Below, piece by piece: positions 11,564 to 52,615 of a DNA stretch of 61,698 bases; within the stretch, counting starts at the first letter, position 1, and each line of letters opens with the position of its first letter. The stretch is from Glaciecola sp. HTCC2999 (GTDB lineage Bacteria; Pseudomonadota; Gammaproteobacteria; Enterobacterales; Alteromonadaceae), in NCBI RefSeq assembly GCF_000155775.1, contig NZ_DS989813.1:141344-203041 (forward strand). The letters are read 5' to 3'. The translations under genes and the position numbers were made by a program. The notes beneath the pieces were generated by a model. That model did not search any database and was not told the DNA's origin. It was given only the letters and a program-made list of their open reading frames with translations.

Positions 11564-12643
11564 TTAGTAAGTTAACTGTAAACGAACTCTAAACTCTTTA
11601 CCTTGGTCGTCACTACCGGCTTCATTGCTCTCACCGTCTGAGTAGTTCACACCTAGTTTCACGTTATTGGCTACGTACCAATTCACCCCTACAGAGTAGG
11701 CACTCGCATCAACACGACCTAACTCAATATCACTGTGGTTGCCGTCGCCTTCTTCCATTCTAGCGAACACTTCCCAAGCACCAGTGCTGTTACTTGGTTT
11801 AACACGACCAAACTTACCGCCTTTATAAGGACGAGTTTCACCCGTTAAAATATAACCCGCTTGGATGTAGTAACCATCACGGTCTGTCGCACCTTGCTCT
11901 TCGTCAAAGTACTCCGATTGGATGTGGAATGAACCAACATTTGCTGCTAATTCTAGACCAACAGCTTGACGATCACCACCTCGTTGTACATAACCGGCAC
12001 CTACGTGCACTAACATATCATCATTTTTGATCGGTAAATATGCTACTCGCGCACCAAAACCAAAGTCATCATCACCGGCGCTACTATCTTCAAATGCCGA
12101 TACTGAATAAAAAGCGTTGCCTACCGCACCATTTAATTTTACCGCGTTTTGGCGACCAACCGCATACTGCTCAGTAATACCTGAACGCTCTAAAGCAGTG
12201 ATATCTTTTGAGCTAGTCATCTCTTCTAAACCAAATGCGACTTTTTGTTTACCGACAGTCAGCTTAGCGGCTTTGCCCCAACCACCGTAAGAAATATATA
12301 AATCTTCTGGTGTACCGCCATTGCCATTACCCACATTAAACTGGGCTTTATAAGACCAGTCATCACCAATGCTACCTTTAGCATAAATACGTGCTCGGCG
12401 AATACTCAAGGTATCTTCGTCAGTAACCCCATTTAATTGCGCATTATTATAGTCCCACATAATACGTCCACCAAGTTGGAATGCAAAATCCCCATCAGTG
12501 GTTTTCACTGAAAAACCGCCCTTAGTGTTAATTTTAATGTCCGCGCCATCAGTAGTTACATTACCTGCAACAGCAGGTGCTGAAGCGAGGAGTAAACCAA
12601 TAGTGGTTGCTAATAATGTTTTTGATGTTGTGTTAATAGACAT
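11564..12643 (-). CDS. OprO/OprP-like phosphate-starvation porin
   Basis: A 359-residue outer-membrane beta-barrel of the Porin_O_P (OprO/OprP) type, whose known members form phosphate- or polyphosphate-selective channels. It has a signal peptide ending APAVA-G, then an early FAFQLGGRIMWDYN strand, SIRRARIYAKGSIGDDWSYK, many alternating aromatic strands and the C-terminal strand FRVRLQLTY. GAGGGA precedes the ATG. It is the first gene of the pst operon and lies directly behind three Pho boxes and a -10. That supports passage of phosphate across the outer membrane for PstS. Whether the channel is truly anion-selective cannot be read from sequence. Confidence 0.87.
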   Translation of the reverse strand: MSINTTSKTLLATTIGLLLASAPAVAGNVTTDGADIKINTKGGFSVKTTDGDFAFQLGGRIMWDYNNAQLNGVTDEDTLSIRRARIYAKGSIGDDWSYKAQFNVGNGNGGTPEDLYISYGGWGKAAKLTVGKQKVAFGLEEMTSSKDITALERSGITEQYAVGRQNAVKLNGAVGNAFYSVSAFEDSSAGDDDFGFGARVAYLPIKNDDMLVHVGAGYVQRGGDRQAVGLELAANVGSFHIQSEYFDEEQGATDRDGYYIQAGYILTGETRPYKGGKFGRVKPSNSTGAWEVFARMEEGDGNHSDIELGRVDASAYSVGVNWYVANNVKLGVNYSDGESNEAGSDDQGKEFRVRLQLTY

Positions 12644-12680
12644 AATTCCCTCGAATTGAATATTTTTAAAATCTGAGCAT

Positions 12681-12774
12681 ATAGTAAAATGCCTTTATGA
12701 CAGAAATATTACAATTTGAGTTATTTATGACACAAATATTAAAGTTTTGTGTATTTATGACAAAAACATTACAT
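12681..12774 (-). promoter_or_regulatory. PhoB-activated promoter with three Pho boxes
   Basis: Three boxes face the porin gene. They read TTGTAAT-ATTT-CTGTCAT (12697-12714), CTTTAAT-ATTT-GTGTCAT (12727-12744) and ATGTAAT-GTTT-TTGTCAT (12757-12774). They repeat at exactly 30-base steps. Exactly 10 bases after the nearest box comes a -10 hexamer, TACTAT (12681-12686), the spacing known for E. coli PhoB promoters where the box replaces the -35. The porin ATG is 38 bases further on. Confidence 0.9.
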
Positions 12775-12900
12775 TTGCATGTGGAATATACCTCTTTAAA
12801 AATATGTACTTATCATAAAATAAACGTATTACAATTTAATGATAGTTTTATTAAAATAATATGACGTTCACATATATTCAGTTCGTGCTGACTCTAGTAT

Positions 12901-13884
12901 CTACCCTGATGTTTGAAACAAGTTGTTTAACTGCGCTTGCTGCTGATTTGATGATATCGGAAAGTATCCCAATTGACGTACAATGTATTGTCCTTGCTGT
13001 GATAAAATATAACGCAAAAACTGAGCAACGCCCGGTGCAAGCGATTTATCTGGTGACTGGTTTACAAGTAAATACAGTTGTCGAGCTAATGGGTATTGTC
13101 CTGATTGGACGGTTTTAGCATTCACTTCCACTTCTTTACCACCATTAGCGATAGATAATGCTTTAACGCCAGGAATGGTAGAACCTAAAGAGGCATACCC
13201 TATCCCCCCCATTCGATTGGCAACTGTATGAATAATCGAGGCAGAACTAGATAGCTGCTTAACTGTGTTACGATAATCACCATGACACAGTGCTTTTTGT
13301 TTAAAGTAGCTATAAGTACCAGAAGCAGAGTTCCTGCCAAATAACTGAACTGGAAATTCGGGGAACTTTGCAAAATCAGATAATGAGTATTCACTGTCAT
13401 CTAATAATTCATGCCAATAATTAATTGGCTGTCCGAATGTGCAATAACGCGTGGCACTAAACAAACGATCTAGTTGATCCACGCTGAGACTTTGGAGAGG
13501 GTTACTCTCCTGAACAAACACACCTATTGCATCAATTGCTACCGTGACCATAGTAGGTTCATATCCAAAACGGTTAATAAACGACTGGCGCTCTGATGGC
13601 TTAAGTGGCCGTGACATTGGTCCAAGTGAAGCGGTTCCTGCGGTAATCGCAATTGGAGCCGCAGAGGAGCCTGTCGTTTGGATTTGAATTTTAGCCTGTG
13701 GATATAAGCGATTGAATTCAGTCGCCCATTCTGTCATTAAACTCGATAATGTTTCTGAACCAATAGATGTAATACTACCCACAACACCAGGCGTCAGTTC
13801 CTGATTAGCATGCGTTAAAGATACGTATGACAAATTAAACATTAGACCTATTAAAATGGTCTTAGTCGCGAGGTAAATTCTCAT
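12901..13884 (-). CDS. Second PstS-type phosphate-binding protein
   Basis: A 327-residue periplasmic binding protein of the PstS class, clearly different from the pst-operon PstS. It has a signal peptide (ILIGLMFNLSYVSLTHA), SIGSETLSSLMTEWATEFN, a TTGSSAAPIAI loop and FGRNSASGTYSYFKQKAL, corresponding to the phosphate-contact loops. Its start lies inside the end of phoR (23-base overlap), so it is the third gene of a phoB-phoR-pstS operon. It could feed the same permease or act in sensing alongside PhoR; the sequence does not decide. The intergenic region after its stop holds the Pho boxes of the porin-pst promoter. Confidence 0.88.
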   Translation of the reverse strand: MRIYLATKTILIGLMFNLSYVSLTHANQELTPGVVGSITSIGSETLSSLMTEWATEFNRLYPQAKIQIQTTGSSAAPIAITAGTASLGPMSRPLKPSERQSFINRFGYEPTMVTVAIDAIGVFVQESNPLQSLSVDQLDRLFSATRYCTFGQPINYWHELLDDSEYSLSDFAKFPEFPVQLFGRNSASGTYSYFKQKALCHGDYRNTVKQLSSSASIIHTVANRMGGIGYASLGSTIPGVKALSIANGGKEVEVNAKTVQSGQYPLARQLYLLVNQSPDKSLAPGVAQFLRYILSQQGQYIVRQLGYFPISSNQQQAQLNNLFQTSG

Positions 13885-15199
13885 TATTTTTATAAGGACT
13901 ATCCGATGGGATCAAATCATTACTTAAGATAAACGAAAATTCAGCTCCTTGTCCAACCTTACTTTTCACTTCCAAGAAAGTATTGTGATGGTTTAAGACA
14001 TGTTTGACAATCGACAACCCTAATCCAGAACCGCCCGTATCACGCGAGCGAGCTTTGTCTACACGGTAAAATCGTTCGGTGAGACGTAACAAGTGCTTTT
14101 CATCAATACCGTCACCATTATCTACAACACGAAACTGCGCATCAGCACCAGACTTCGACCAATACACATCAATTTGTCCTTCATCCGGTGTATAACGAAT
14201 CGCATTAAATATAAGATTGGAACACGCAGAGCGAAGTTCACTTTCCACACCATAAACATTCAAACCCGCTTCAATATGAAATTGAATAACATGACGTTTA
14301 TCTTTATTTAGCCGCTCTGCTTCCATATTGATTTGTTGAAACATACGAGACATATCGACAATATTTTCATAAATACGCTCTGAGCTTGACTCAATACGCG
14401 ATAACACCAATAAATCTTCAATGAGATTTTGCATCCGTCGAGTTTGGGTGCTCATTTCATAAATGGCTTTATATGCGAGTGGATCATCATTCAACATCGT
14501 CATCGGTAGCATTTCTAAATATCCACTAATGACAGTTAAAGGGGTACGCATCTCATGAGAAACATTCGCCACAAAATCTCGACGCATATCTTCCAATTGT
14601 GAAACACGTGTAATATCTCGGGAGATCAACAATAAATTATCGTCTCCATATGGCATTATCCGATATTCATTGGTTTTTCTTGGGTTTGCTGGGGACGGGA
14701 CTTCAATCGGATAAGTAAAATCTCCGGCTTGGAAATACTCAACAAACTCTGGATGACGTAATAAATTATCTATTCGCATACCCATATCATCAGGCCATTT
14801 TATGCCTAATTCAAACCTAGCCAGTCGATTACACCATAATATCGTGGCATCATTATCAATAATCACTACCGAATCTGGCAGCGCCTCAGCCCCTTTGCGA
14901 AATCGCTTAACTAATTCTCCTAACTCTTTGCGTTTGCCACGCTGGCGGCGTTGTAATTGATATATACCCTCGTAGATATATTCCCATACGCCATGTACTT
15001 TTGGAGGAGATAGTTTTTTACTTTGCCGGATCCATTGATTTAATTTATATAATTGATATAAATTAAATCCCAGCATGACCAATGTCGAAAGCGTTACACC
15101 AAACATGTAATTATCCAACAACATACCCAGTATCAGTGCAAGTATGATCAGCACGATAAGCTGAGATATATTTTTTGACCATGTAAATGGATAATACAT
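13862..15199 (-). CDS. phoR: Phosphate regulon sensor histidine kinase PhoR
   Basis: Inner-membrane kinase that phosphorylates PhoB when phosphate is scarce. Two hydrophobic N-terminal helices (LIVLIILALILGMLLDNY and TLVMLGFNLYQLY) are joined by a very short loop, so it lacks a real periplasmic sensor, as usual for PhoR. A PAS domain (ALPDSVVIIDNDATILWCN) follows, then HisKA with His215 in VSHEMRTPLTV, the N box LIFNAIRYTPDEG and the G2 box GGSGLGLSIVKHVL. It is 445 residues, close to the family length of 431. It lies 21 bases after phoB and overlaps the second pstS, so all three are cotranscribed. Confidence 0.95.
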   Translation of the reverse strand: MYYPFTWSKNISQLIVLIILALILGMLLDNYMFGVTLSTLVMLGFNLYQLYKLNQWIRQSKKLSPPKVHGVWEYIYEGIYQLQRRQRGKRKELGELVKRFRKGAEALPDSVVIIDNDATILWCNRLARFELGIKWPDDMGMRIDNLLRHPEFVEYFQAGDFTYPIEVPSPANPRKTNEYRIMPYGDDNLLLISRDITRVSQLEDMRRDFVANVSHEMRTPLTVISGYLEMLPMTMLNDDPLAYKAIYEMSTQTRRMQNLIEDLLVLSRIESSSERIYENIVDMSRMFQQINMEAERLNKDKRHVIQFHIEAGLNVYGVESELRSACSNLIFNAIRYTPDEGQIDVYWSKSGADAQFRVVDNGDGIDEKHLLRLTERFYRVDKARSRDTGGSGLGLSIVKHVLNHHNTFLEVKSKVGQGAEFSFILSNDLIPSDSPYKNNENLPRD

Positions 15200-15220
15200 A
15201 AACTAAATAGCCTTAAATCA

Positions 15221-15907
15221 TTATTTAACAGAGAAACGGTAGCCAGCACCACGCACCGTTTGGATCATAGCATCATATCCTTGCGACTCTAAAGCCTTAC
15301 GTAGTCGTCTAATATGTACATCGACAGTCCGATCCTCTACATAGACATTGGTCCCCCAGACATTATCCAGGAGCTGTTCACGTGAGTACACACGCTCCGC
15401 ATGGGACATAAAAAAGTGTAATAATTTAAATTCAGTAGGGCCCATTTCAATACTGACACCATTGGCTGTAACTCGATGAGAAATAGGATCTAATACCAAA
15501 CCCGAAAAGTGAATAGGTTCTTCTTTCGCTGTAGGTGTCACACGTCGCATGACTGCCTTAATGCGCGCAACGAGCTCTTTTGGAGAAAAAGGTTTAGTAA
15601 TGTAATCATCCGCACCGGCATCTAAGCCTCTGATTTTATCATCTTCTTCTCCACGCGCTGTCAACAAAATAACCGGAATCTCTCGGGTGAACTCATGTTC
15701 TTTAAATTTACGCGCTAACTGTACACCACTGCCACCAGGTAACATCCAATCTAATAACACCAGATCAGGATACGGTTCGACCATTTTATCTAGTGCAATA
15801 TCAAAGTCTTCGGCTTCGTTCACGGTGAAACCTGCTTGTTCTAAGATTATTTTGATCATTTCCCTGATTGGGGCTTCATCTTCAACTAACAAGATTGAAC
15901 GAGACAT
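15221..15907 (-). CDS. phoB: Phosphate regulon response regulator PhoB
   Basis: A 228-residue OmpR-type regulator that binds Pho boxes after phosphorylation by PhoR. The receiver has acidic residues E9/D10, phospho-acceptor Asp53 in [11 protein letters not shown] and the Lys of ITKPFSP. The winged-helix domain has the recognition region [23 protein letters not shown] lies about 8 bases before the ATG. A Pho box with correct spacing precedes the gene, so it should activate its own operon. The recognition helix is nearly identical to that of E. coli PhoB, which supports using the E. coli Pho-box pattern to read this window. Confidence 0.97.
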
Positions 15908-41087: not shown

Positions 41088-41489
41088 ATGAGTGGCGAAA
41101 CGAATCTAACTAAGTTATTAGCCAGTATGTCTCCGGCATGCGATAACATGATGTATGGCTTTGCCACTCTCCCGTCAAAAGATGCTCAAGGGCTATCTTT
41201 TGTGCCCAAGTGTATGTTTCAAGAAGATGAAGGTATCACTGTTATCGCCACCATTGATCAGTTAGTCGATAACAATATTGAGTGTATGGGACCGTTTGCG
41301 TGTATTACCCTTACCGTCCACTCATCACTTGAAGCGGTGGGGCTAACAGCTGCCTTTGCTACCGCACTGGGTAAAGCTGATATCAGTGCCAACGTGGTAG
41401 CGGCTTACTACCATGACCATATCTTTGTGGCATGGGAAGACAGAGACAGTGCGATGGCGACGTTGAATGCGTTACCTGAGCATAATTAA
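41088..41489 (+). CDS. ACT-like DUF2241 domain protein
   Basis: A 133-residue cytosolic protein of the DUF2241/ACT-like group. It shows NLTKLLASMSPACDNMMYGF, the middle ITLTVHSSLEAVGLTAAFAT and the end ANVVAAYYHDHIFVAWEDRD. ACT-type folds often bind amino acids, but no ligand is known for this family. GGGAGTG precedes the ATG. It lies 38 bases after dsbA, so may be cotranscribed. Its last bases overlap the convergent TPR gene by 4 bases. Confidence 0.8.
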   Translation: MSGETNLTKLLASMSPACDNMMYGFATLPSKDAQGLSFVPKCMFQEDEGITVIATIDQLVDNNIECMGPFACITLTVHSSLEAVGLTAAFATALGKADISANVVAAYYHDHIFVAWEDRDSAMATLNALPEHN

Positions 41490-42802
41490 TCTGCTGCTAT
41501 AACCGTCTCATTTTGTTTAAACGAGCGTTGTTCCCCACTCACAAATTTCTGCCATTGTTCAGCCATCTTTTGACTAGATTTAAATGACTCAGCTTGAGCT
41601 AGTTGATCTAAAGATTTAGCAAACTCACGCTTGTTATAGTAAGCCATACCCAGAACTAAATGTATCGTTCCTTGATTACGCAGGCTCCCTTTTTTAATGG
41701 CAAGTTCAGCACTTTCAATCGCCAAATCAAATTCATCAATGTTTAATAACAACTGACTTAATTGGGCATAGATTTCGCCATCATTTGATAACGCCGCCGC
41801 AGCTTGCATTACCGGCACAGCTTTATCGATTTCCTTAGCTAATTGATAACATTGTCCTAGGAATTTCAAGTTACGTAAATTCTCTTCCAAAATACCGTTA
41901 TTCATTGCTTGCAACATCATCTCAGCACACTTGTAAGGGGCTTTGTGATAGTAGTATAGCTGTGCCATATTAAAGATGTCAGACGCTTTTTCTAAATAGC
42001 CTTGTTGCTTTGCAGCTTCCATAATACCAAGTTGATGCTTCTCCATTCCAAGCTCTCCATACATCCCAGCTAGCTGAATCCAATACTTAGGTTCATCAAA
42101 AAGCTTCACCATTTTGACTAAGATATCTTTCACTTTTTCAGGTTGTTTTAACTCATAATAAATCGCACGTTGGAGGATCAGCCAACCTTCGTCTGGGATC
42201 ATGCCTGCTGCTTCTTTATTTTTTACAGCTTGAGTGACAAACTTACCAGCCTGCTCATATTGCTTATCTTGATAATAGGCTTGGGCTTTGATAAATAAAT
42301 GCTTTGGTGGCACGTCACCCACATTTAAGTATTCCCAGCGTTCTAAGAAGTGAATAGAGTCTTTATAGTTACCTTGCATCAATGACAATTGCGCAAGCGT
42401 AAATAATGTACTTTGTTCAAAGGATTCAGGTATACCAGGCTCTTCTATTACTTTTTTAAACGACTCTAGCGCGTTATCAGCTTGCTCAAGATTATAGTAA
42501 ATGAAGCCATAAAAGTTATATAGCATGGCTATTTCGTAACTATTCATCGAGCTTTTTTTATCTTCAATGTCTTTTAATGCTGCAAATGCTTCTTGCGGCT
42601 GATCATTGTCAGCAAACGATTGAGCACGAGCGAGTTGCTCATAGACTTTTCCACGTAGTGTAGGTACACGACGAGTCTTTTTTTCACTGGCTTTTTGCGT
42701 ATCCGCATTTACGTTGGCGGAAACAGAGAAAGATAATGCAGGTAAAGTGATGATAGTACCGACGCACAATGCCATTACTATAGTATGAAAGAAACGAGTC
42801 AT
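41486..42802 (-). CDS. TPR-repeat periplasmic protein of the TonB2 cluster
   Basis: A 438-residue secreted protein with a signal peptide (TIVMALCVGTIITLPALSFSVSA) and many tetratricopeptide-type helix pairs, for example AMLYNFYGFIYYNLEQADNA and GTIHLVLGMAYYNKREFAKS. TPR proteins are a regular last member of Vibrio/Shewanella TonB2 clusters and may stabilise the complex. I chose the ATG at 42802 because AAGGAG lies 8 bases before it and the signal peptide begins there; the longer frame overlaps tonB. It is the last gene of the DUF3450-ttpC-exbB-exbD-tonB operon, 11 bases after tonB. Confidence 0.88.
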   Translation of the reverse strand: MTRFFHTIVMALCVGTIITLPALSFSVSANVNADTQKASEKKTRRVPTLRGKVYEQLARAQSFADNDQPQEAFAALKDIEDKKSSMNSYEIAMLYNFYGFIYYNLEQADNALESFKKVIEEPGIPESFEQSTLFTLAQLSLMQGNYKDSIHFLERWEYLNVGDVPPKHLFIKAQAYYQDKQYEQAGKFVTQAVKNKEAAGMIPDEGWLILQRAIYYELKQPEKVKDILVKMVKLFDEPKYWIQLAGMYGELGMEKHQLGIMEAAKQQGYLEKASDIFNMAQLYYYHKAPYKCAEMMLQAMNNGILEENLRNLKFLGQCYQLAKEIDKAVPVMQAAAALSNDGEIYAQLSQLLLNIDEFDLAIESAELAIKKGSLRNQGTIHLVLGMAYYNKREFAKSLDQLAQAESFKSSQKMAEQWQKFVSGEQRSFKQNETVIAAD

Positions 42803-42812
42803 GAAAATCTCC

Positions 42813-43424
42813 TTAACCATCGATTTTAAATGTAATACGGTTTTGCACACCTGATACCTCGGTTGCGACACCATTGACTACACGCGGCTTATACTTGAAT
42901 TTTTTAGCCGCATCAATTGCTGCTTGCTCAAATATACCTTGTGGTTGAGCTTCTATAACGAAGGGGTCTTTGACTGCGCCAATAGTATTCACCGTAAACT
43001 CAACAATCACAAAACCCTCAATGCCACGCTGTAATGCACGGCGTGGGTATACAGGTGCAACTTTAACTATAGGCAAATACTCACCATCACCCGACTCCAA
43101 ACCTAATCCACCGTCAAGTGATACATCTGTAGCAACCTCAGCAGCGAAGTTCATACCTGCCCCCTCAGCATCAGGTGAAGGCGCATCCATTTGTGGTGTT
43201 TCCATCTGTGGAGGCGGTTCCTCGGGCTGAGGCGGTTTCTTCGGTTTACGATCCTTTTTTTCAACCGCTTCTTCTTTTTTGACTCGAACAAAATCCATGA
43301 CGCTACCCTTTGGTGGTTCGGTTAGCGCACTGCCCCCACTTTTAATCAGAGATTGCATCAAAAAGAATAGACCTAGGGTTATTACAGCCGAGACAAATAT
43401 TGCAATGATAAAACGTGAAATCAT
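42813..43424 (-). CDS. tonB2: TonB2-type energy transducer
   Basis: A 203-residue inner-membrane protein spanning the periplasm to energise outer-membrane receptors. It has an N-terminal membrane helix (FIIAIFVSAVITLGLFFLM), a Lys-Pro/Glu-Pro linker (KKPPQPEEPPPQ) and the C-terminal domain (YPRRALQRGIEGFVIVEFTV, then AAIDAAKKFKYKPRVVNG). The TonB2 class is shorter than E. coli TonB (239), matching this protein and its neighbours. It starts 4 bases after exbD. Confidence 0.93.
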   Translation of the reverse strand: MISRFIIAIFVSAVITLGLFFLMQSLIKSGGSALTEPPKGSVMDFVRVKKEEAVEKKDRKPKKPPQPEEPPPQMETPQMDAPSPDAEGAGMNFAAEVATDVSLDGGLGLESGDGEYLPIVKVAPVYPRRALQRGIEGFVIVEFTVNTIGAVKDPFVIEAQPQGIFEQAAIDAAKKFKYKPRVVNGVATEVSGVQNRITFKIDG

Positions 43425-43428
43425 AAGG

Positions 43429-43836
43429 TTATGGCTCTTGGGCAGCTATCGACACATCATACACACCTGCAGATCGTGATGCGTCCATGACTTTAATTAA
43501 CACATCTGTTGTTGCTTTTTTATCTGCTTGTATCACAACACTGCCTTGAGGATTTTCAGCGCGTAATCGTTCTATATTTGCTTGGACCGCGCGTTCATCG
43601 ATACGGCGCTTGTTGATCCAAATCTCACCTTTATCACTTATTGCAATTAAGATATTCGCACGATCTTTTTTGACAGCCGTAGCGGCATCCGGACGATTGA
43701 CATCAATACCGGCTTCTTTAACAAAAGACGCTGTCACAATGAAAAATATCAACATTATAAATACGACATCTAGCATCGGCGTCATGTCAATCGCAGCTTC
43801 TTCTTCATCAATCAAATTTTGAAAATGTTGTTTCAT
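43429..43836 (-). CDS. exbD2: ExbD-type biopolymer transport protein
   Basis: A 135-residue inner-membrane protein with one helix (DVVFIMLIFFIVTASFV) and a periplasmic domain. It carries the essential membrane aspartate just before the helix (MTPMLDVVF) and the typical INVSRP-like segment, here IDVNRPDAA. It couples the proton gradient to TonB together with ExbB. Spacing to exbB is 30 bases and to tonB 4 bases. Confidence 0.94.
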   Translation of the reverse strand: MKQHFQNLIDEEEAAIDMTPMLDVVFIMLIFFIVTASFVKEAGIDVNRPDAATAVKKDRANILIAISDKGEIWINKRRIDERAVQANIERLRAENPQGSVVIQADKKATTDVLIKVMDASRSAGVYDVSIAAQEP

Positions 43837-43866
43837 ACTTTTACCTGTTATGCCTATAACATCGCA

Positions 43867-44403
43867 TTAAGCTGATGCAGTAGTACGTTTAATTTCGATG
43901 GCATCTTCTAAATGCATGCGTTCAGTTTTGACTTTACGAGTTAACCATGTTGAGGCGAATACGCCTGATAACGCACCCACCATACCGGCCATTGTAGGAA
44001 TAGTGGCTTTAGAAACACCCGATGCCATTGAACGAGCACTGCCTGAACCGGATATAGCCATGACATCAAATACTTCTATCATACCTGTCACTGTACCCAT
44101 CAAACCTAGCAGTGGACACAGCGCAACTAGCGCCTGAATAATAGGAGTGCTGCCATTCAGATTCATGATTAAACGCGATATGATTTTTTGGCGAACTTGT
44201 TCTGCGTTCCAGGACGACTTATCTGATCTTGCTAGCCACTCTTGCATAGCACTACGTTTTTTTGCTTTGTGCCATATAAACACATACAACACACGTTCTA
44301 AAATGAGCATCCACATCACAAAAATAAGTAACCCGATGACCAAGAGTACTTGGCCACCTGTTTCTGTAAAATCGCGAATGGCTTCAAAAAACTCGGTCAT
44401 CAT
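43867..44403 (-). CDS. exbB2: ExbB-type biopolymer transport protein
   Basis: A 178-residue inner-membrane protein with three helices: VLLVIGLLIFVMWMLILERV, then LVALCPLLGLMGTVTGMIEV and MAGMVGALSGVFASTWL. The LLGLMGTVTGMI motif is the hallmark of the MotA/TolQ/ExbB family. It forms the pentameric motor around ExbD. The gene directly abuts ttpC (stop and start adjacent), which encodes a second ExbB-like protein, so the motor here probably has both, as in the Vibrio TonB2 system. Confidence 0.93.
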   Translation of the reverse strand: MMTEFFEAIRDFTETGGQVLLVIGLLIFVMWMLILERVLYVFIWHKAKKRSAMQEWLARSDKSSWNAEQVRQKIISRLIMNLNGSTPIIQALVALCPLLGLMGTVTGMIEVFDVMAISGSGSARSMASGVSKATIPTMAGMVGALSGVFASTWLTRKVKTERMHLEDAIEIKRTTASA

Positions 44404-45768
44404 TTAGCCTCGTTCTGAACGCTCTGCAATGACACCTGCAGCTTGTTCTTGCAGAATATAAACAATGTTCTTACTACGTGTATTGAGCATCGCATACAAT
44501 AACGTCATGGGAATGGCGACCACTAACCCTAAGACTGTGGTAACAAGCGCGGTCGAAATACCACCCGCCATCAATTTCGGATCACCAGTACCAAATAATG
44601 TAATCGCCTGAAAGGTGTTAATCATTCCGGTAACTGTACCCAGTAGGCCCATTAATGGCGCTACTACCGAGATAATTTTAATGATGGTTAAGTTACGCCC
44701 AAGCTTGGGTACTTCACCTAAAATCGCTTCAGTTAAATGTAACTCTAGAGACTCACTATCTGCACTGGGATAATCATCTTTCACTTTCATGACACGTCCT
44801 AAAGGATTGTTACTGCTAAACGTTTCTGATTTAAGCTGTTTATTCACTTTAGCTTTGATAATGGTCAAAGATACTAAGCGCTCTAAAGCAAGTAGCAAAC
44901 CAATCGCACCAACAATTAAGATGATGTAACCGACAAGGCCACCCTGTTCCACGCGCTCTTGTAAATTTGGTGCTTGAACTAGCAGGCCTAAAATCGATCC
45001 ACCCGTTGGATCAATGCCAAATTGCACTGTTTCACCATTAGATGCTTCAAGCGTCGCTACTGATGCCCCAAAACGGTCAGCCGGTTGGCGAATCAATTCT
45101 GACACAGTCCCTGTTACCCCGTTGTATTCAAGGTATTTGCCATCTGCAACTAATGCAAAAGGCCCAACACGTACTACTTCTTTATTGACTTTATTCCCGT
45201 CTGCTTCCACAACAGAAGTGGTGAAACGAGTCACTTTTCCGGCTTCAGTCATTTCACGTTGAATTTCAAACCAAACCCTCTCAATTTCATCGATAGATGC
45301 TAATTTAGATGATTTACCCATCGTTTGCGCCATTTCATCTAAAAACTCAGACCTGCCTGGGATTTGTGCTGATATAACAGAGTTGTAAAATTTATTTTTA
45401 GTATCACCAGACACTTGCTGCAAGACACCAAAAAGCTCTTTTAATGAACCTAGGCGCGTATTTAATGCATCATTTAAATCAGCCAATTTAAATTCATTTT
45501 CTTCGAATTGTGTTTCTAAACGCTCCGAAGTTGCCAATGCTTGATTTCTTACTTGCACAGTATCGCGAAGAATTTGGTCTTGCTCGGCACGTTTTTGAAT
45601 AAAGGCTTGCTCACGTTCTGTGTTTTGCGCTTTTTGCGCAAACTGTCCTTGCTCAAGCTGTTGTAATAATGCATCTAAATCTAATGCTTGTTTATTTTCT
45701 GCCACCGCACCTACACTAAATAATGAGGCACATACGATGGCAATGATGGGAGTAAGTAATCGTTTCAT
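44404..45768 (-). CDS. ttpC: TtpC-like large MotA/TolQ/ExbB family protein
   Basis: A 454-residue inner-membrane protein. A signal peptide (LLTPIIAIVCASLFSVGAVA) precedes a coiled-coil periplasmic part (residues about 25-120, rich in Glu, Gln and Leu) and a beta-rich linker. The ExbB-like domain has three helices (GGLVGYIILIVGAIGLLLAL, APLMGLLGTVTGMINTFQAI and TALVTTVLGLVVAIPMTLL). This architecture is that of TtpC, required by the TonB2 complex of Vibrio. The ATG at 45768 is preferred over one two codons earlier because AAGG is then 8 bases away. Confidence 0.9.
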   Translation of the reverse strand: MKRLLTPIIAIVCASLFSVGAVAENKQALDLDALLQQLEQGQFAQKAQNTEREQAFIQKRAEQDQILRDTVQVRNQALATSERLETQFEENEFKLADLNDALNTRLGSLKELFGVLQQVSGDTKNKFYNSVISAQIPGRSEFLDEMAQTMGKSSKLASIDEIERVWFEIQREMTEAGKVTRFTTSVVEADGNKVNKEVVRVGPFALVADGKYLEYNGVTGTVSELIRQPADRFGASVATLEASNGETVQFGIDPTGGSILGLLVQAPNLQERVEQGGLVGYIILIVGAIGLLLALERLVSLTIIKAKVNKQLKSETFSSNNPLGRVMKVKDDYPSADSESLELHLTEAILGEVPKLGRNLTIIKIISVVAPLMGLLGTVTGMINTFQAITLFGTGDPKLMAGGISTALVTTVLGLVVAIPMTLLYAMLNTRSKNIVYILQEQAAGVIAERSERG

Positions 45769-45778
45769 TGTCATTACC

Positions 45779-46546
45779 TTAGTCTGTGATTGCTACAGGA
45801 AGCATTAATAAATCAGGGGCTAATTGTTTCTTGGCCATACGTAACCCTTTAGTGATCTGGGTACGATAGCTAGAATCTAATGCTTCCCACTGGCGCGTTT
45901 GTTTATTCCATACGCCTTGACTTGATGCATCACGTGTTTGATAAATAAGTGCAGTACGCCCGAGACGTAGAAATTCTACATCGCGCTCTTGACCATCGAT
46001 AATATGTAATCCTTGATATGCTTCTAAAGTACGCCCGTAATCCATTTCTACTTGGAATGCCTCCATCACACGACGAAATTTCTCTGAGGGTGCCACATCA
46101 GCACGATCCATCATGGCACGCAGTCCAGTGACACGTTGAGCACGCTCCTCAGGCAAAAACGGTACATCGAGCGCAACAAACTGAGCTAGACCATCAATCA
46201 TATTCATCATTAAAGGGGTAATCTGACGTTCAATCACACTCACTTCATCAATCGCGGCATTAAGATCAGCCATTTCTTGGTTCTGATTGTTAACTTGATT
46301 TTGTAACTGACTGTTGTAGACATTTAAGCCTGCAATCTCTTTGTTCAGCGCTTTAAATTGTTGTAGTTTGCTATCAATTTGATCGGCAATATTATCAATC
46401 TTAGCTTGAGAAGCTGCCGCTGATTGGTTAATCATGGCCGAGTTATCAATGACTTTTTTAACCGTGCTATCTTCTTGAGCAAATAAGCTAGTGCTTACCA
46501 TTAATGTGCTCAATAAGACGAGTGCAAGAGAGCTTACGCGTTCCAT
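45779..46546 (-). CDS. DUF3450 domain protein, first gene of TonB2 operon
   Basis: A 255-residue secreted protein with a signal peptide (SLALVLLSTLMVSTSLFA-Q). A long coiled coil follows (SQAKIDNIADQIDSKLQQFK, AGLNVYNSQLQNQVNNQNQE), then the DUF3450 features FLPEERAQRVTGLRAMMDRA and RTLEAYQGLHIIDGQERD. The family nearly always lies next to ttpC/exbB genes; function unknown, presumably periplasmic. I chose the ATG at 46546, start of the signal peptide, with AGGT upstream. A Pho box promoter precedes it, so the whole six-gene operon should be induced by phosphate starvation. Confidence 0.9.
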   Translation of the reverse strand: MERVSSLALVLLSTLMVSTSLFAQEDSTVKKVIDNSAMINQSAAASQAKIDNIADQIDSKLQQFKALNKEIAGLNVYNSQLQNQVNNQNQEMADLNAAIDEVSVIERQITPLMMNMIDGLAQFVALDVPFLPEERAQRVTGLRAMMDRADVAPSEKFRRVMEAFQVEMDYGRTLEAYQGLHIIDGQERDVEFLRLGRTALIYQTRDASSQGVWNKQTRQWEALDSSYRTQITKGLRMAKKQLAPDLLMLPVAITD

Positions 46547-46604
46547 ATATGAAGACCTATTTTGATGGTGGTTGCTATGAAATGGCAACTTTAAAACAGC
46601 GCTA

Positions 46605-46638
46605 AGGATAAATAATCTAAGTGACACTTTTATTACAA
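46605..46638 (-). promoter_or_regulatory. Pho box and -10 of the TonB2 operon
   Basis: On the minus strand TTGTAAT-AAAA-GTGTCAC (46621-46638) is followed after exactly 10 bases by the -10 hexamer TATCCT (46605-46610). Geometry equals that of the phoB and porin-pst promoters here. The second 7-mer has two changes from CTGTCAT, so affinity may be moderate. The DUF3450 ATG is 58 bases beyond the -10. Confidence 0.75.
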
Positions 46639-46718
46639 AACTAGCACTAGATTACATCTTCATAAAAGTGTCATATTCGACAGTGATTTGCTGTTATAAG
46701 GCCTAAAACACTAGATAA

Positions 46719-46749
46719 TAAAAAAGGAAGCACATGGCTTCCTTTTTAT
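46719..46749 (-). terminator. Terminator after the TonB-dependent receptor gene
   Basis: AAAAAGGAAGC (46721-46731) pairs with GCTTCCTTTTT (46737-46747) around 5 bases. On the minus strand a T run follows. It ends the lipoprotein-receptor transcript about 20 bases after the receptor stop, so the TonB2 operon has to start from its own promoter. Confidence 0.9.
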
Positions 46750-46767
46750 GACAGTGATATGACGTTA

Positions 46768-49446
46768 TTAAAAGTCGTATTTAAAAGACACACTCACACC
46801 ACGCCCTTTAGTTTCTGAACGCAGTAACACGTTTTCAAACTCTAGCTCTTTTTGTTCGTCGAACATGTTTTTGAGCTTAAATGTAATGGTCGTATTAAAA
46901 TCTGGGTAATACTTATACACCGCATCCAAAGAATGGAAGGGTAGTTCCATATTGTCATCAAATCCATCAATACCCGGGATTAAAATACGTTCGCCAAAGA
47001 CGTTATATACCAATGATGCACTGTGCTCTCCATTATCAGAGTCAAAACCAAGCTGTAAGTTAACAACATACTCAGAATGACCTGTCAAACGACGTGTCGT
47101 ATTAGTAATCGCAGCAGAAACACCAGTTTGGTCAACAATGTTTTGACGGTCAAGTTCGATTTCTGAATCAGAAAGCGTCACGTTACCAGACAAAAACATG
47201 TTATCCCATACACCGTCACCGATGACTTCAAGACCTTGTAAAAACTCGATCTCAACACCAGTAAGTGAGCCAGTTTCAGCATTTGCAATGCGAATTAATG
47301 GAGGACCATCCTGAGCAGGTGATTGCACCGATTCAATTGGATTCGTCATATCCTTATAGAACACACCAATTGATAGGTTATTACCTGCTTCTCGATACCA
47401 TTCCCAACGTAAATCATAATTAATGATAGAGGTGGTGAGTAGGCCAGGCGTTCCAGCCACTGGAAATTCAGTTAATGGATCAATATATGTCGCAGAAGAG
47501 ACTTCACGCAAATCAGGACGAACGACGGTTTCACCAACACTAGCACGGAATTGCATTGAATCATCTTTGATGTATGTCACAGCAAGTGCAGGATAAAAAT
47601 CATCCTCTTGGAACGCAAGCTGTGCACGATCATCTTCATCTGATAAATCAATTTGGTTAGTACGCGGATCCATTGGCACAACGGCTTGTCGGAAATCTTC
47701 GAAACGAGCACCACCACTGAAACGCCATTGACCTTGATAGAACAAATCCGCTTCTAGATAAAACGCATCCACTTTTTGTGCTGCAGAGTAATCATCACCC
47801 GCGATGGTAGTATCACGTACTAAGAATTGACTAGCAGAATACATCGCGTTATCCAAAGCGCTATCACTTAAAATAGCAGCAAACGAATTACCTGATAACG
47901 TATTACCGTCAGCAAAAGCACGGGTATTAATGGCTATTCGACGGTTTTCTGCAACACGCGCTTTTGTTAAGAAATCACCACCAAATTTAAATTCCATTTC
48001 CCAATCTTGAGTAGTAAATGGGATAGTAGTATTCCACCCATAATTTTCAACACGGTCATGTAATGTTTGGAAGTCGTACTGCGCAGCACCCGTTGAGTTT
48101 GAAAGCGTACTTTCATTAACCACATCGAAAACACCATCTTCATTCACATCGGAAAGAATAAAACGAGCACCGAAACTACCAGGCGCATTTCGTACTGAAC
48201 GACCCAAAGAATATTTCCAATCAAAACCAGCAAAATTCAACTCAGGAAATGTATGCATACCTTTGATTTGGTTGGTATACATTTTACGCTCTTCATAATC
48301 GATACTGATATCGCGCACACGAAGACCATCGTTCTGGTTCAAGTTTTCCGTATTCCCGAACTTTTCTTTGACTTCATCAGACGTATCACTTAAAGCAATT
48401 AATGAATAATCGATGCGGTGATTGCGTTGATAATCAATCCCCATGTTTAACAGGGTCGACCATTTTGTCGTGTATTCGGTTACAAGCACATCATCGAAGA
48501 AACGTACGATTTCAATGGTGTCACCGACGCGGTTTGCTTGCTCAAGTTCATACTCTTCAGAAACATTCACACCACGGCTGTAGCCAGAAGCTAACAAGTA
48601 ACCGGTACGAATATCATCCGACAAATCAAAGTTGTTACCAACAGAGACATTAAAACCATAATTCGGGTCCACTGATGCATCAACCGGATCATAATCACGC
48701 TTCATGCTTTTCAGGACTTGGACGGCTTCATCTTGTGTAAATGCATTGTCAGCTTGTCTAGGAATTAATGGGTTGTTACCCAAGAAATCCTTAGTCGCCC
48801 AACTATTTACTAAGGTTGAAGGTGCAGCAAGGTTACCATCGTCTTGACCTAAGAAATTATCGTCACGACCATAGTCAAGCGCATCACCAGAATTTTCTGT
48901 ATTTGTGCCAATACTACCTGAAACATTAAAGATGAAATCAGAAGGGATGGACTTTAATCGAATATCAACGTTACCACCACCAAAAGAGGCAGGCATAGAC
49001 GGAGAATATGATTTTTGTACTGATAAACTTTCAATGATATCTGATGGAAATAAATCCAATGGAATAACATTACGCGTTGGATCGGGCGAAGGTACGTTAG
49101 CGCCATTTAATAGCGTACTTGAGTAACGTTCACCTAAACCACGCACATATATGAACTTACCGTCAACAAGTGTCAGACCTGTTACACGTCTTAATGCTGA
49201 GGCAGCATCACCATCACCCGTTCGTGAAATCTGTTCGGCACCTAAGATATCAGCAACAAAGGCTTGATTCTTTCGCTCTTCTAGAACTGCTGTTGCAGTC
49301 CCTTTTAATCGAGTGCCCGTTGCAACCACTTCTTCAATGATTTCTTCATCTGACTCTTGCGCTAATGCGGCAGGTGTAACTAGCAGAGAAGATAAAATTG
49401 CTAATGTAAGTGTTTTTAACGGAAACTGAGTATTAGGTTGTTTCAT
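46768..49446 (-). CDS. TonB-dependent receptor, predicted phosphate-starvation induced
   Basis: An 892-residue outer-membrane transporter. After a signal peptide (TLTLAILSSLLVTPAALA-Q) comes a probable TonB box in EEIIEEVVATGTRL. The plug follows (ADILGAEQISRTGDGDAASA, VTGLTLVDGKFIYVRGLGER, YSSTLLNGANVPSPDPTRNV), then a long barrel ending in VSVSFKYDF with terminal Phe. The RGLGERYSSTLLNG type is common among large marine receptors of unknown ligand. The ATG at 49446 has TGAGGT 7 bases upstream; the longer frame uses a TTG. It follows the 941-residue lipoprotein gene with only a hairpin between, and that gene has a Pho box. The partner energiser operon downstream also has one. I infer a phosphorus-containing ligand; which one is unknown. 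Confidence 0.88.
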   Translation of the reverse strand: MKQPNTQFPLKTLTLAILSSLLVTPAALAQESDEEIIEEVVATGTRLKGTATAVLEERKNQAFVADILGAEQISRTGDGDAASALRRVTGLTLVDGKFIYVRGLGERYSSTLLNGANVPSPDPTRNVIPLDLFPSDIIESLSVQKSYSPSMPASFGGGNVDIRLKSIPSDFIFNVSGSIGTNTENSGDALDYGRDDNFLGQDDGNLAAPSTLVNSWATKDFLGNNPLIPRQADNAFTQDEAVQVLKSMKRDYDPVDASVDPNYGFNVSVGNNFDLSDDIRTGYLLASGYSRGVNVSEEYELEQANRVGDTIEIVRFFDDVLVTEYTTKWSTLLNMGIDYQRNHRIDYSLIALSDTSDEVKEKFGNTENLNQNDGLRVRDISIDYEERKMYTNQIKGMHTFPELNFAGFDWKYSLGRSVRNAPGSFGARFILSDVNEDGVFDVVNESTLSNSTGAAQYDFQTLHDRVENYGWNTTIPFTTQDWEMEFKFGGDFLTKARVAENRRIAINTRAFADGNTLSGNSFAAILSDSALDNAMYSASQFLVRDTTIAGDDYSAAQKVDAFYLEADLFYQGQWRFSGGARFEDFRQAVVPMDPRTNQIDLSDEDDRAQLAFQEDDFYPALAVTYIKDDSMQFRASVGETVVRPDLREVSSATYIDPLTEFPVAGTPGLLTTSIINYDLRWEWYREAGNNLSIGVFYKDMTNPIESVQSPAQDGPPLIRIANAETGSLTGVEIEFLQGLEVIGDGVWDNMFLSGNVTLSDSEIELDRQNIVDQTGVSAAITNTTRRLTGHSEYVVNLQLGFDSDNGEHSASLVYNVFGERILIPGIDGFDDNMELPFHSLDAVYKYYPDFNTTITFKLKNMFDEQKELEFENVLLRSETKGRGVSVSFKYDF

Positions 49447-49502
49447 TTTAAACCTCAATTCACTGCTTGAATAACTGTTGTATTTGGAAGTGTTTGAAAC
49501 AC

Positions 49503-49529
49503 AAGTGCGCTACCGAAGGTAACGCACTT
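49503..49529 (-). other. Intercistronic hairpin between surface lipoprotein and receptor genes
   Basis: AAGTGCGCTACC (49503-49514) pairs with GGTAACGCACTT (49518-49529), one mismatch and a 3-base loop. No T run follows on the minus strand, so it looks like an mRNA 3' end stabiliser or partial attenuator. That would allow more lipoprotein than receptor, like the pstS-pstC hairpin. Confidence 0.65.
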
Positions 49530-49557
49530 GATCATCAAGCATTACTGACTTGCTAGG

Positions 49558-52383
49558 TTATAGACCTACAGTCCAACCAGCAGTCCAGTTATTTTCAGCG
49601 TCTTTAACAGCACCGATGAAGTCAGTTGTAGTGAAGAATGAATCAACAGCGTTTACGTCTGTAGCATCCACACCAGTTGCGATAGTAAAGATATCATTCA
49701 CAACAGCCGCTTCATCAGCTGCAACAGCATTGTTACGCGCCGCATCGTTCCACCATGCTTCAACACCTGCAGTGTCAAGTCCTGGTGCATCAACACCTTT
49801 GAAGTTTTCAGCACATGCAACAACTGACGTTTGAATGTTGATATCACCATCAGTCAAGTTACCTTGAACTGTGTCGTCGTTATCAAACTCGAGACATTCA
49901 CCAGCCGCGCCAGTGATAACAAAGTTATATAGCTGCGCAGACGTTTGGTCACGAAGTAATATACCTTCAGAATCTGTGTCAGCTGTGTCAAATGCGTTAC
50001 CAATGATAGTCATGTTTGCAACAGTTGGGTTTGAGAATTCAAAGCCTTCGCCTGAACCTGCGTTTCCGCCATCACCGTCACCTTCAATACCACGGTTAGC
50101 ATCAGAATCATCATCAGCGTGCTTAACAAGTACGAACTGCATCTTACCGTCATAACCGTTATCCCAATCAACTGAGTCATCTTGGATACCGGTTAGAACA
50201 ACATATTTAGCATTCACAGCACCACCGAAGAACTCGACACCATCATCCGCATTTTTGTGCACTTGAATGTACTCAACCGTTGTTGCAGAGCCAACGCCAC
50301 CGAATGTGATTCCGTTTAACTCGTTGTCAGGTGCAATTTCAAATCCACCGTGCATGACACGAACATAACGTAAGGTACCTGAGTTATCCGCATCATCAGT
50401 GCCACCAAATACTGCACCTTCTTGTACACCTTCTACTTGAAGCGCACATGCTGTTCCGTCCGTTGGACACTTAGTAGATTGACCGTTACCTAAGATAACC
50501 ATACCACCCCACTGACCTGGCGCACCGTTTACTAGTGTGCTTGGGTCTTGTGCGTGCTGACGAGAAGTGAAAGTAATTGGGTTTGTCGCGGTTCCGTTCG
50601 CATCGATTTGTGAACCTCGGCTTACCACTAGGTAATCGTTACCAGAAGAACCATATATAATAACACCAGGCTCTACTGTCAATGTAGCAGAATCAGTGTT
50701 ATCGCCACCAACAAATACAGCACCAGAAAGTGCGTACATGTTCCCAGCTGTTAATGTTAAGTCTGAAGTAATACGACCTGAAACTTGACATGTGTTTGTT
50801 TCGCCGTCAACAGAAGCAATCGTAGTGGTGCCTGCGGGACAACCTGACTGAGAAGCCGCAACCGCAACTTGGCCACCGCCAAATCCGAATGCCCAACCTT
50901 GACGCCAATCAGTCGCACCTATAGCACCTACAAAGCTGTTTTCTGCAAAGAAACCATCTAATGTAGAAGGGTTGCCACCCGCTGTTAGCAATGAAGACTC
51001 AGAAGTCAAAGAACCATCGTTGTTTATACCAAGCGCATTGCGTGCATCTGCATCAGTAAAATCAACAATTTGGTTACCTACTTGACCTTCAAACCAAGTT
51101 ACTAATTCTTCAGTGGTCTTCCCTGGAACATCTACACCTTTGACAGGCTCACTACATACTAACGCAGAGTATGTGATAGTTAGGTCGCCATCGTCTAAGT
51201 TACCTTGAACAGTCGCATCGCTATCAAACTCAAGACACTCACCCATTTCTTCAGGGCCAGTCACTAATAAGTTCATAATTTTAGCGGCTGTTTGGTCACG
51301 TAGTAATAAACCTTCAGAATCTGAATCTTCAGTGTCAAAGGTATTACCAATGACAGTCATGTTAGCAACCATTGGTGCCGAGAACTGGAATGCACCGCCA
51401 TCATCGTTTGCGTTACCGCCGTCACCGTCGCCTTCTATACCACGGTTCGCATCTGAGCCGTCACGTGCGTGCTCTACGTAAACGTATTGTAATTTACCGT
51501 TATAACCGTTATCCCAGTCAACAGAATCGTCTTGGTTACCCGTTAATACTAAGTACTTAGCGTTAACAGAACCACCGAAGAATTCAACACCGTCATCAGA
51601 GTTAGCGTGAACCTGAACATATTCAACCGTTGTTTCAGAACCAACACCACCGAATGTGATACCGTTTAATTCGTTATCAGGAGCAATTTCGAAACCGGCA
51701 TACTTAACGACGGTGTAACGTAAAATCCCAGAATTATCAGTCGCGTCAGTTCCACCGAATACAGAACCTTCGACAGCACCTTCTACTTGAAGCGCACATG
51801 CTGTGCCATCTGTTGGACACTTAGTTGATGGTGCGTTACCTAAGATAACTAAACCACCCCATTGGCCTGGACCAACTTCTGCACCAACAACATCATTGTA
51901 AGATGTCATGATTACCGGGTCTGTTGCAGAACCTGTTGATTCAATTTTTGAACCACGGCTAATAACTAAATAATCAGCACCTGAACGACCAAAAATAATT
52001 GTACCTGGTTCGATTTCAAGCGTGACGGAATTTTCGTTGTCATCACCAATAATCACAGGACCTTCTAATGCCCATACAGTGTCATTCGTTAATGTAATAG
52101 TTTCTGCAGCGTCACCTACAGATGAAATACGACCTGATAAAGAGCGCACTTCTACAGAAGAGCCCAATGCAGTGGACACTTGAGAACTCAAAAATGGAGA
52201 TGCGACACCAGGTGCACTATCATCAACTACAGGTGTTGAAGGCGTGCTTGGTGCATTATTAGTCGTCGTAGTAGTATTAGTGTTAGTAATATCACCTTCA
52301 GTAATATTAATATCGCCACCACAGCCGGCTAATACTAATGCCGATGCAACAGCAGATGCTTGAAATATGTGTTTTATATTCAT
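49558..52383 (-). CDS. Tandem-duplicated beta-helix-like surface lipoprotein, Pho-box controlled
   Basis: A 941-residue lipoprotein: signal with lipobox LVLAGC (Cys21), then a Thr/Asn/Pro-rich linker to about residue 65. Two homologous halves follow (about 83-500 and 535-941), offset by 450 residues. Each half has GPVIIGDD/GAVFVGGD-like turns, GQWGG(L/M)VILGN, STKCPTDGTACALQVEG, FEIAPDNELNGITFGGVGS, DDGVEFFGG, QDDSVDWDNGY, SDANRGIEGDGDGGNA and SEG(L/I)LLRDQT. The short repeated valine-rich turns suggest a parallel beta-helix; the Asp/Gly-rich loops suggest calcium or ligand binding. I recognise no enzyme family. It heads a transcript with the TonB-dependent receptor and has its own Pho box. 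A role as a surface phosphoester-binding or -hydrolysing partner of the receptor is inference. AGGGAA precedes the ATG. Confidence 0.85.
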   Translation of the reverse strand: MNIKHIFQASAVASALVLAGCGGDINITEGDITNTNTTTTTNNAPSTPSTPVVDDSAPGVASPFLSSQVSTALGSSVEVRSLSGRISSVGDAAETITLTNDTVWALEGPVIIGDDNENSVTLEIEPGTIIFGRSGADYLVISRGSKIESTGSATDPVIMTSYNDVVGAEVGPGQWGGLVILGNAPSTKCPTDGTACALQVEGAVEGSVFGGTDATDNSGILRYTVVKYAGFEIAPDNELNGITFGGVGSETTVEYVQVHANSDDGVEFFGGSVNAKYLVLTGNQDDSVDWDNGYNGKLQYVYVEHARDGSDANRGIEGDGDGGNANDDGGAFQFSAPMVANMTVIGNTFDTEDSDSEGLLLRDQTAAKIMNLLVTGPEEMGECLEFDSDATVQGNLDDGDLTITYSALVCSEPVKGVDVPGKTTEELVTWFEGQVGNQIVDFTDADARNALGINNDGSLTSESSLLTAGGNPSTLDGFFAENSFVGAIGATDWRQGWAFGFGGGQVAVAASQSGCPAGTTTIASVDGETNTCQVSGRITSDLTLTAGNMYALSGAVFVGGDNTDSATLTVEPGVIIYGSSGNDYLVVSRGSQIDANGTATNPITFTSRQHAQDPSTLVNGAPGQWGGMVILGNGQSTKCPTDGTACALQVEGVQEGAVFGGTDDADNSGTLRYVRVMHGGFEIAPDNELNGITFGGVGSATTVEYIQVHKNADDGVEFFGGAVNAKYVVLTGIQDDSVDWDNGYDGKMQFVLVKHADDDSDANRGIEGDGDGGNAGSGEGFEFSNPTVANMTIIGNAFDTADTDSEGILLRDQTSAQLYNFVITGAAGECLEFDNDDTVQGNLTDGDINIQTSVVACAENFKGVDAPGLDTAGVEAWWNDAARNNAVAADEAAVVNDIFTIATGVDATDVNAVDSFFTTTDFIGAVKDAENNWTAGWTVGL

Positions 52384-52425
52384 ATTTATTCCCTATGAAA
52401 TATCTTTAGTAAAAAAACTCTCTGT

Positions 52426-52459
52426 AGAATATCGAGGGAAAATGACAGAATTGTTACAT
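52426..52459 (-). promoter_or_regulatory. Pho box and -10 of the surface lipoprotein-receptor operon
   Basis: On the minus strand ATGTAAC-AATT-CTGTCAT (52442-52459) is followed after exactly 10 bases by TATTCT (52426-52431). The second 7-mer is perfect. The ATG is 42 bases beyond the -10. Geometry is identical to the phoB promoter. Confidence 0.82.
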
Positions 52460-52615
52460 TGATAAATTGTCATAAAAGTTTCATTTTATGAAATGGAGCG
52501 AACGCTTATTAGTTATGTGGCGAGATTTAGGTAGTGCATAATTAAGATAACAGCTACGAACAACAGCCACCATACTGATGATGATAGCTGTTGTCGTATC
52601 TAGAGTTAGATAGGT

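Follow-up and report, generated by a model that had tools for sequence, protein, structure and literature searches.

A putative phosphate-starvation uptake system with its own TonB2 motor lineage in Glaciecola and related Alteromonadales

TonB motors are usually regarded as common to the uptake of iron, B12 and glycans. In this study, we describe a locus of Glaciecola sp. HTCC2999 (Alteromonadaceae) in which a complete TonB2 motor lies beside the genes of a lipoprotein and its partner TonB receptor, with a putative binding site for the phosphate-starvation regulator PhoB, a Pho box, in front of each of the two transcripts. It occupies positions 41486-52459, minus strand, of a 61,698-nucleotide stretch of contig NZ_DS989813.1, hereafter the window. 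The lipoprotein-receptor half has described counterparts. In Caulobacter crescentus, ElpS (Cc0170) is a phosphate-starvation surface lipoprotein whose gene lies beside that of the TonB receptor Cc0171; an arrangement of elpS, receptor and type II secretion genes is reported for cc0170/cc0171 and also for the cc0170 homologues of Xanthomonas, Sphingomonas and Hyphomonas (PMC2996285). Several TonB receptors of Caulobacter are reported to be controlled by PhoB (PMC11208175). The Flavobacterium johnsoniae proteins FI and FII (PUSIII/PUSIV) are related to the Caulobacter protein, polygalacturonase-like and encoded beside TonB-dependent transporters (TBDTs), FII together with an OprP gene in the phoBR operon; phosphate depletion strongly induces FI, FII and their TBDTs, but not the OprP gene (PMC8115612).

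As for the motor, Vibrio TonB2 is encoded by ttpB2-ttpC2-exbB2-exbD2-tonB2-ttpD2 and has a Fur box and an iron response (PMC6957404, which we follow in naming TtpB, TtpC and TtpD). The exbB2-exbD2-tonB4 genes of Pseudomonas aeruginosa lie in the VreI/PhoB cluster and are termed uncharacterised (PMC7035377, PMC4971064), and BF4134 of Bacteroides fragilis, a MotA/TolQ/ExbB proton channel, stands in a table of phosphate-starvation and PhoB-dependent genes with +3.78 and -1.42 in two columns (PMC3547664).

The Glaciecola locus comprises two adjacent transcripts (Table 1). The genes of a 941-residue lipoprotein and, behind it, an 892-residue TonB receptor look like one transcript; the other encodes DUF3450/TtpB, TtpC, ExbB, ExbD, TonB and TPR/TtpD, a complete TonB2 set. 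This is the layout read from the letters alone in an earlier note on this DNA, and the open reading frames, the lipobox and the Pfam matches agree with it. Each transcript is preceded by a Pho box, exactly 10 bases and a -10 hexamer (TATTCT and TATCCT), as the note had also claimed. The DUF3450 gene was taken to start at the ATG at 46543; a longer frame from a GTG (46627) would begin within the Pho box.

Pho boxes were scored with a soft matrix made from the consensus, at thresholds of 11, 13 and 15 of our choice. In the window, the porin-pst box ranks first and the boxes of the lipoprotein and DUF3450 genes second and joint third. Eight sites score above 15, compared with a Markov mean of 0.4 and at most 3 in 20 shuffles, and a strict half-site pattern has four matches where 0.28 are expected. 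In the genome (2.56 Mb, 82% complete), the strict half-site pattern followed by a spacer of 9-11 bases and TANNNT has five occurrences, against none in the reversed control; three of the five are in the window, before the porin-pst, lipoprotein and DUF3450 genes. The likeness to the other Pho promoters of the window, which the earlier note had asserted, stands for the porin-pst box but is weaker for phoB: the box of the latter (15967-15984) scores only 10.9, and the Markov mean of sites above 11 is already 6.6 per window.

The boxes are conserved in relatives, for which 79 loci were collected in one scan of named species genomes; the closest lipoprotein among them (L031) is 95% identical. Taking the best score within 300 bases upstream of each gene, 78/79 lipoprotein and 48/49 DUF3450 genes reach at least 11, as do about 2% of shuffles; the receptor (0/78), TtpC (0/49), ExbB (1/48) and TPR (0/45) genes hardly ever do. 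At 13 or more the counts are 70/79 and 45/49 (shuffles, 0.4%). Dereplication at 85% lipoprotein identity leaves the box in 36/37 and 24/25 cases, respectively. TANNNT at a spacing of exactly 10 was seen at 55 of the 78 lipoprotein sites and 38 of the 48 DUF3450 sites, and never at 9 or 11.

Conserved gene order goes along with these promoters. The receptor gene adjoins the lipoprotein gene in 78/79 loci; in the 79th, the contig stops there. DUF3450 lies within the examined flank in 49 loci, downstream in 48 of them; where the downstream sequence extends for 9.5 kb or more (70 loci), it was found in 47. Pair and motor are present in Alteromonas and Glaciecola relatives, and Colwellia and Thalassotalea, too, have the motor with its Pho box; the co-occurrence of pair, TonB2 cluster and Pho boxes, raised as a check in the earlier note, is recurrent. 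One locus (L071 4741-12884) has the TonB2 cluster upstream of the lipoprotein gene, not downstream, and in Shewanella sp. KJ10-1 (L108 10001-12806) the lipoprotein gene is not open in the matched frame, probably by a frameshift. Besides the system itself, the commonest neighbours in a clustering over the 79 loci are homologues of PhoB, PhoR and a PBP_like_2 binding protein (PBP). In 39/79 loci, all three are found on the strand of the lipoprotein gene and no more than 5 kb upstream of it, in some with an intervening gene, and the upstream PBP is 42-49% identical to the one that follows phoR in the window, where the phoB-phoR-PBP block is some 36 kb from the lipoprotein start. In three Paraglaciecola loci, separate from these 39, the gene some 1.3 kb upstream is a homologue of porin O/P. 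Altogether, conservation, promoter geometry, phoBR linkage and the paralogue comparison described below strongly support the view that both transcripts would be under phosphate control.

Farther away, a gammaproteobacterium of another family (G390; L230 9481-19809) has the genes for DUF3450, TtpC, ExbB, ExbD, TonB, TPR protein, receptor and a one-domain ElpS-like lipoprotein in one run, motor first, behind a Pho box of 15.3 with a spacer of 10 and TAGGAT. A second one-domain lipoprotein copy (L231) has a weaker box (12.7, spacer 10, TAAATT). Among distant relatives, often GC-rich, only 6/18 stretches of 700 bases upstream of the lipoprotein gene reach 13, and for this reason Pho control is not claimed for them.

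The motor is distinct from the other TonB2 set of the same genome. Matches to DUF3450 (PF11932) above the cut-off occur in 163 of 290 genomes of the order, with two in the Glaciecola genome. For comparison of paralogues, 60 PF11932 regions, a part of the matches of those genomes, were fetched, 44 of them in one family (f1). Within f1, the Pho box is present in 20/20 clusters of the window type and in 0/23 of a second type; the types were split by DUF3450 identity to the window (52-82% vs 33-42%) after the scores were visible. One f1 region outside this count (L164; 42%, score 2.7) also lacks the box, as does the second TonB2 cluster of Glaciecola itself (L140, G000:C6:6349-7068). Near the latter, TonB receptor plug matches were seen at C6:688 and C6:15869. 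The tree of TtpC was built from 84 rows, namely 24 of the 49 named DUF3450 loci and the 60 fetched regions; L230 was dropped by a length filter. It has a clade of 47 (support 100/100, stem 0.99) that contains 44 of the 45 Pho-labelled rows; the remaining one, L189, falls outside. All 23 G-numbered genomes in the clade match the ElpS-type lipoprotein, three of them weakly (1e-40 to 1e-47). These data strongly support a complete TonB2 energiser that would be separate from the other set of the genome, and a complete energiser under Pho control, the central proposal of the earlier note, is borne out at the level of sequence.

The lipoprotein has a lipobox (LAGC-GG) at C21 without Asp at +2, which predicts sorting to the outer membrane; C21 is invariant in an alignment of 37 rows (the window and 36 of the 79 loci). 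The protein matches no Pfam or NCBIfam family at E<=0.001, when the domain was scanned against Pfam at lenient settings, only a weak Beta_helix match was obtained, in 6/12 members (best E 0.00033), and single and profile searches against the sequences of solved structures, made for both lipoprotein and receptor, returned nothing at the thresholds used. It is a tandem duplicate whose halves are 58% identical, and its model (mean predicted local distance difference test score 86, predicted template modelling score 0.55) has two beta-rich repeats. The Foldseek matches are PL6 alginate lyases, GH55 glucanases, tailspikes and pectate lyases, whose folds are right-handed beta-helices. Since the whole two-domain model does not superpose, the template modelling scores (query) are as low as 0.08-0.21 in the 50 listed rows, and we claim no more than the class of fold: a predicted beta-helix in each of the two tandem domains, right-handed if the Foldseek matches are followed.

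Both halves carry an acidic series (N-x-DDG-x-E, DDS-x-D, NR-x-IE-x-D, EG...R, GEC-x-E) that is invariant in the 37 rows except for one Ser in one row; its invariant acids include D713, D714, E717, D735, D736 and D739. Farther out, only its core is kept: DDGxE and DDxxD are present in 27/27 matches from 20 distant regions, with variation in the Arg and in the acids that come later. Of 398 genomes of the phylum, 51 had matches to a profile of the domain, in one-domain frames of mostly 507-626 residues, in two-domain forms and in proteins near 1390 residues with three or four matched segments. Four loci (L184, L185, L186, L169) encode ElpS-type proteins of about 1380-1400 residues with three or four such segments, and the domain number is variable. 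A receptor match lies in the same stretch in 17 of the 20 distant regions. Type II secretion linkage, judged by the gspE family model alone, was found in 10/20 (19 genomes; nine over the curated cut-off, G497 just under), in agreement with the published cc0170/cc0171-type arrangement. By gene order, predicted fold and published homology, rather than by direct sequence comparison, the lipoprotein may be placed in the ElpS/FI-FII phosphate-starvation family. A SusD identity was rejected: no SusD Pfam match was obtained at E<=0.001, and the model is a beta-helix instead. The role like SusD that the earlier note had suggested therefore holds for the pairing of a lipoprotein with a TonB receptor but not for fold or Pfam family, and is an analogy only.

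The receptor has 892 residues from the ATG at 49446 and 896 from an upstream TTG. With 187.6 bits against a curated cut-off of 310 it falls outside the TonB-Xanth-Caul family TIGR01782, and Foldseek places its model nearest to heme and siderophore receptors, a group that dominates the solved TonB receptor structures. The hairpin behind its gene, between the two transcripts, is the longest in a terminator scan that overall gave 10 sites with 9.3 expected, which is not above chance.

Further Pho-like sites were noted. Two of them, 52467-52484 (+; 16.1) and 46657-46674 (+; 11.8), are on the opposite strand, point away from both promoters and have no obvious gene to serve. Serial Pho-like sites (12697, 12727, 12757, 12828, 12839, 12850) lie upstream of the porin-pst operon in 12697-12867. 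The fourth strict site of the genome (L254 1501-2400, G000:C7:468697) precedes a broken receptor-like gene with CarboxypepD_reg, presumably Oar-like, whose frame is interrupted by two adjacent stop codons, be it a pseudogene or an assembly error. The fifth, about 400 bases before an open reading frame that we take to be argC-like, may be a chance occurrence.

Table 1 Features of the locus and of the phosphate genes elsewhere in the window
Feature	Position	Strand	Remarks
Promoter, lipoprotein-receptor transcript	52426..52459	-	Pho box 52442-52459, 10-base spacer, -10 TATTCT 52426-52431
ElpS-type lipoprotein, 941 aa	49558..52383	-	two predicted beta-helix domains in tandem, about aa 79-505 and 515-941
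TonB-dependent receptor, 892 aa	46768..49446	-	PF00593 and PF07715; structure model; Foldseek to TonB receptors
Terminator-like hairpin and T run, 11 pairs	46721..46747	-	likely end of lipoprotein-receptor transcript
Promoter, TonB2 transcript	46605..46638	-	Pho box 46621-46638, 10-base spacer, -10 TATCCT 46605-46610
DUF3450 protein (TtpB-like), 254 aa	45779..46543	-	PF11932, E=2.3e-93
TtpC-like MotA/ExbB family protein, 456 aa	44404..45774	-	PF01618; tree
ExbB, 178 aa	43867..44403	-	PF01618
ExbD, 135 aa	43429..43836	-	PF02472
TonB, 203 aa	42813..43424	-	PF03544
TPR protein (TtpD-like), up to 462 aa, reading frame overlapping tonB	41486..42874	-	TPR Pfam matches
phoB 15221-15907, phoR 13862-15199, PBP_like_2 binding protein 12901-13884	12901..15907	-	homologues near lipoprotein gene in relatives
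Porin O/P gene and upstream Pho boxes (12697-12714, 12757-12774)	11564..12774	-	reference Pho promoter of the window

Given this gene content, the conserved promoters, the linkage and the separate motor lineage, we consider it likely that the locus encodes a PhoB-controlled, TonB-driven outer-membrane uptake system. At low phosphate, PhoB would bind both Pho boxes and both transcripts would be switched on. The lipoprotein would be anchored at the outer membrane, probably on the cell surface, where the acidic series of each domain may capture, and perhaps trim, a phosphorus-bearing ligand. As the constant pairing suggests, the ligand would then be passed on to the partner receptor, with which the lipoprotein may form a complex, and the Pho-type TonB2 motor, made under the same condition, would open the receptor; the energising step is taken over from Vibrio TonB2. 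The process could be completed in the periplasm by a PhoA-type phosphatase together with Pst. The genome has a gene for a PhoA-type phosphatase; PhoX was not found in it (82% complete) and is present in 17 of the 24 genomes of the family that were searched. The earlier note proposed active import of a bulky phosphorus compound; Pho control and a separate motor are strongly supported by the sequence, and import of a phosphorus compound is the best inference at present.

Several observations weigh against this reading. Its evidence in this lineage is sequence throughout, and the ligand is not named by gene context: among 13 neighbour representatives there was no phosphatase or nuclease, most neighbour clusters not having been put to a family search. 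Three members of the TtpC clade (L094, L184, L186) are below the box threshold (9.3, 10.2 and 8.0). The position of the best Pho site varies: it is roughly 90-190 bases upstream in most Colwelliaceae loci and about 277 in L036, L053 and L098. Seven lipoprotein genomes (G005, G040, G052, G064, G071, G082, G213) have none of their nine fetched DUF3450 clusters, out of 11 matches, in the clade. The pair thus occurs where no copy of this motor is known and does not depend on it, and it seems that the motor follows the pair and not the reverse. In Caulobacter, expression of Cc0171 was reported for rich as well as poor medium, and a change in intracellular phosphate was not detected on a shift to poor medium, possibly owing to the sensitivity limit (PMC2996285).

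Phosphate could be the trigger only, and the cargo of the Pho-controlled importer a metal complex or a glycan free of phosphorus. The models fit this idea, the lipoprotein being nearest to polysaccharide-active beta-helices and the receptor to heme and siderophore receptors, though the latter dominate what has been solved; besides, none of the recurrent neighbours was conspicuous as a phosphoesterase, though most of them were not named by family search. Members of the PhoB regulon are, on the other hand, mostly phosphorus acquisition genes, phoB, phoR and PBP are close by in half of the loci (39/79), and a Fur box signal was not obtained, so that we regard such a cargo as unlikely. Iron control through Fur instead of PhoB, which the earlier note had set against its own proposal, is unsupported. 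With a consensus identical in its letters to that in PMC6957404, 4/79 lipoprotein genes matched at 13 or more of 19 positions (shuffles, 5%) and 1/49 window-type DUF3450 genes (shuffles, 11%). The scan has limited power and its result is weak evidence, for the second-type clusters also gave only 4/23 against 7% in shuffles, none reaching 14. The same gene order is Fur-controlled and serves siderophores in Vibrio (PMC6957404), and the cluster could on these grounds be an ordinary housekeeping or iron TonB2 set that happens to lie near a starvation gene. A separate TonB2 set in the same genome, boxes in 20/20 versus 0/23 clusters, the clade of its own and the lack of a Fur signal make this very improbable.

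A different role was proposed for ElpS, that of an activator of extracellular phosphatase. Overexpressed ElpS led to higher alkaline phosphatase activity in supernatants and ElpS is released from the surface, but refolded or immunoprecipitated ElpS had no phosphatase activity (PMC2996285). If the lipoprotein were mainly such an activator, or an enzyme, receptor and motor would serve its display, release or recycling. The gspE genes near ElpS-type genes in half of the distant regions are in line with this; the partner in the present lineage, however, is a TonB motor, of a type known for import, and the gspE homologue of Glaciecola is on another contig (C3) than the window (C5). We give this explanation a minor chance and prefer PhoB-controlled uptake.

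If organic phosphorus is indeed imported, the system would be a route of marine phosphorus recycling that surveys of PhoX, PhoD or Pst genes miss, and its hosts would be organisms in which the ligand of the ElpS family could be sought. It is tempting, but doubtful at present, to go further and assume that the Alteromonadales evolved a separate, starvation-committed TonB2 lineage that powers the uptake of a large phosphorus-bearing polymer, a glycan or the like, bound or cut at the surface by the double beta-helix lipoprotein. This would provide a major group of marine bacteria with an energised outer-membrane route for macromolecular phosphorus. In contrast to the view of a shared motor, a full second copy with Pho boxes is kept here beside a starvation pair, often near phoBR.

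The lipoprotein-receptor half is not new: it resembles a described phosphate-starvation family that is responsive in two phyla, a likeness that the earlier note had missed. The pair is like ElpS/Cc0171, for which Shewanella homologues are named in the paper, and the Shewanella loci found here have the same pair; ElpS, at about 50 kDa, differs from the two tandem domains of the window protein, and the neighbour of the Caulobacter pair is an operon for type II secretion (PMC2996285), that of the window pair a TonB motor. FI and FII belong to a Bacteroidetes host, and ExbB has no occurrence in the text of that paper (PMC8115612). SusCD and PusCD share the principle of a surface lipoprotein with a TonB-dependent porin, but the window lipoprotein, a predicted double beta-helix, has no SusD match. 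Phosphate-linked energiser genes also have precedents. The P. aeruginosa cluster likewise has TonB energiser genes within a phosphate-starvation regulon; unlike the window motor it is under control of the sigma factor VreI, is described without TtpB, TtpC or TtpD in the gene lists cited and, in place of an ElpS-type pair, has Hxc secretion genes linked to it (PMC7035377, PMC4971064). For B. fragilis, the table cited lists a single ExbB-family gene, with no TonB2 set or ElpS-type pair alongside (PMC3547664). A Pho-controlled TonB2 (TtpC) system joined to an ElpS-type pair was not named among the open-licence literature matches listed, subscription papers being outside their scope; the new element would thus be the TtpC-type TonB2 paralogue under Pho boxes joined to the pair. 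Its nearest described relative in organisation is Vibrio TonB2, which has the same six gene types in identical order: where Vibrio has a Fur box and an iron response, the window motor has a Pho box and, in relatives, linkage to phoBR (PMC6957404).

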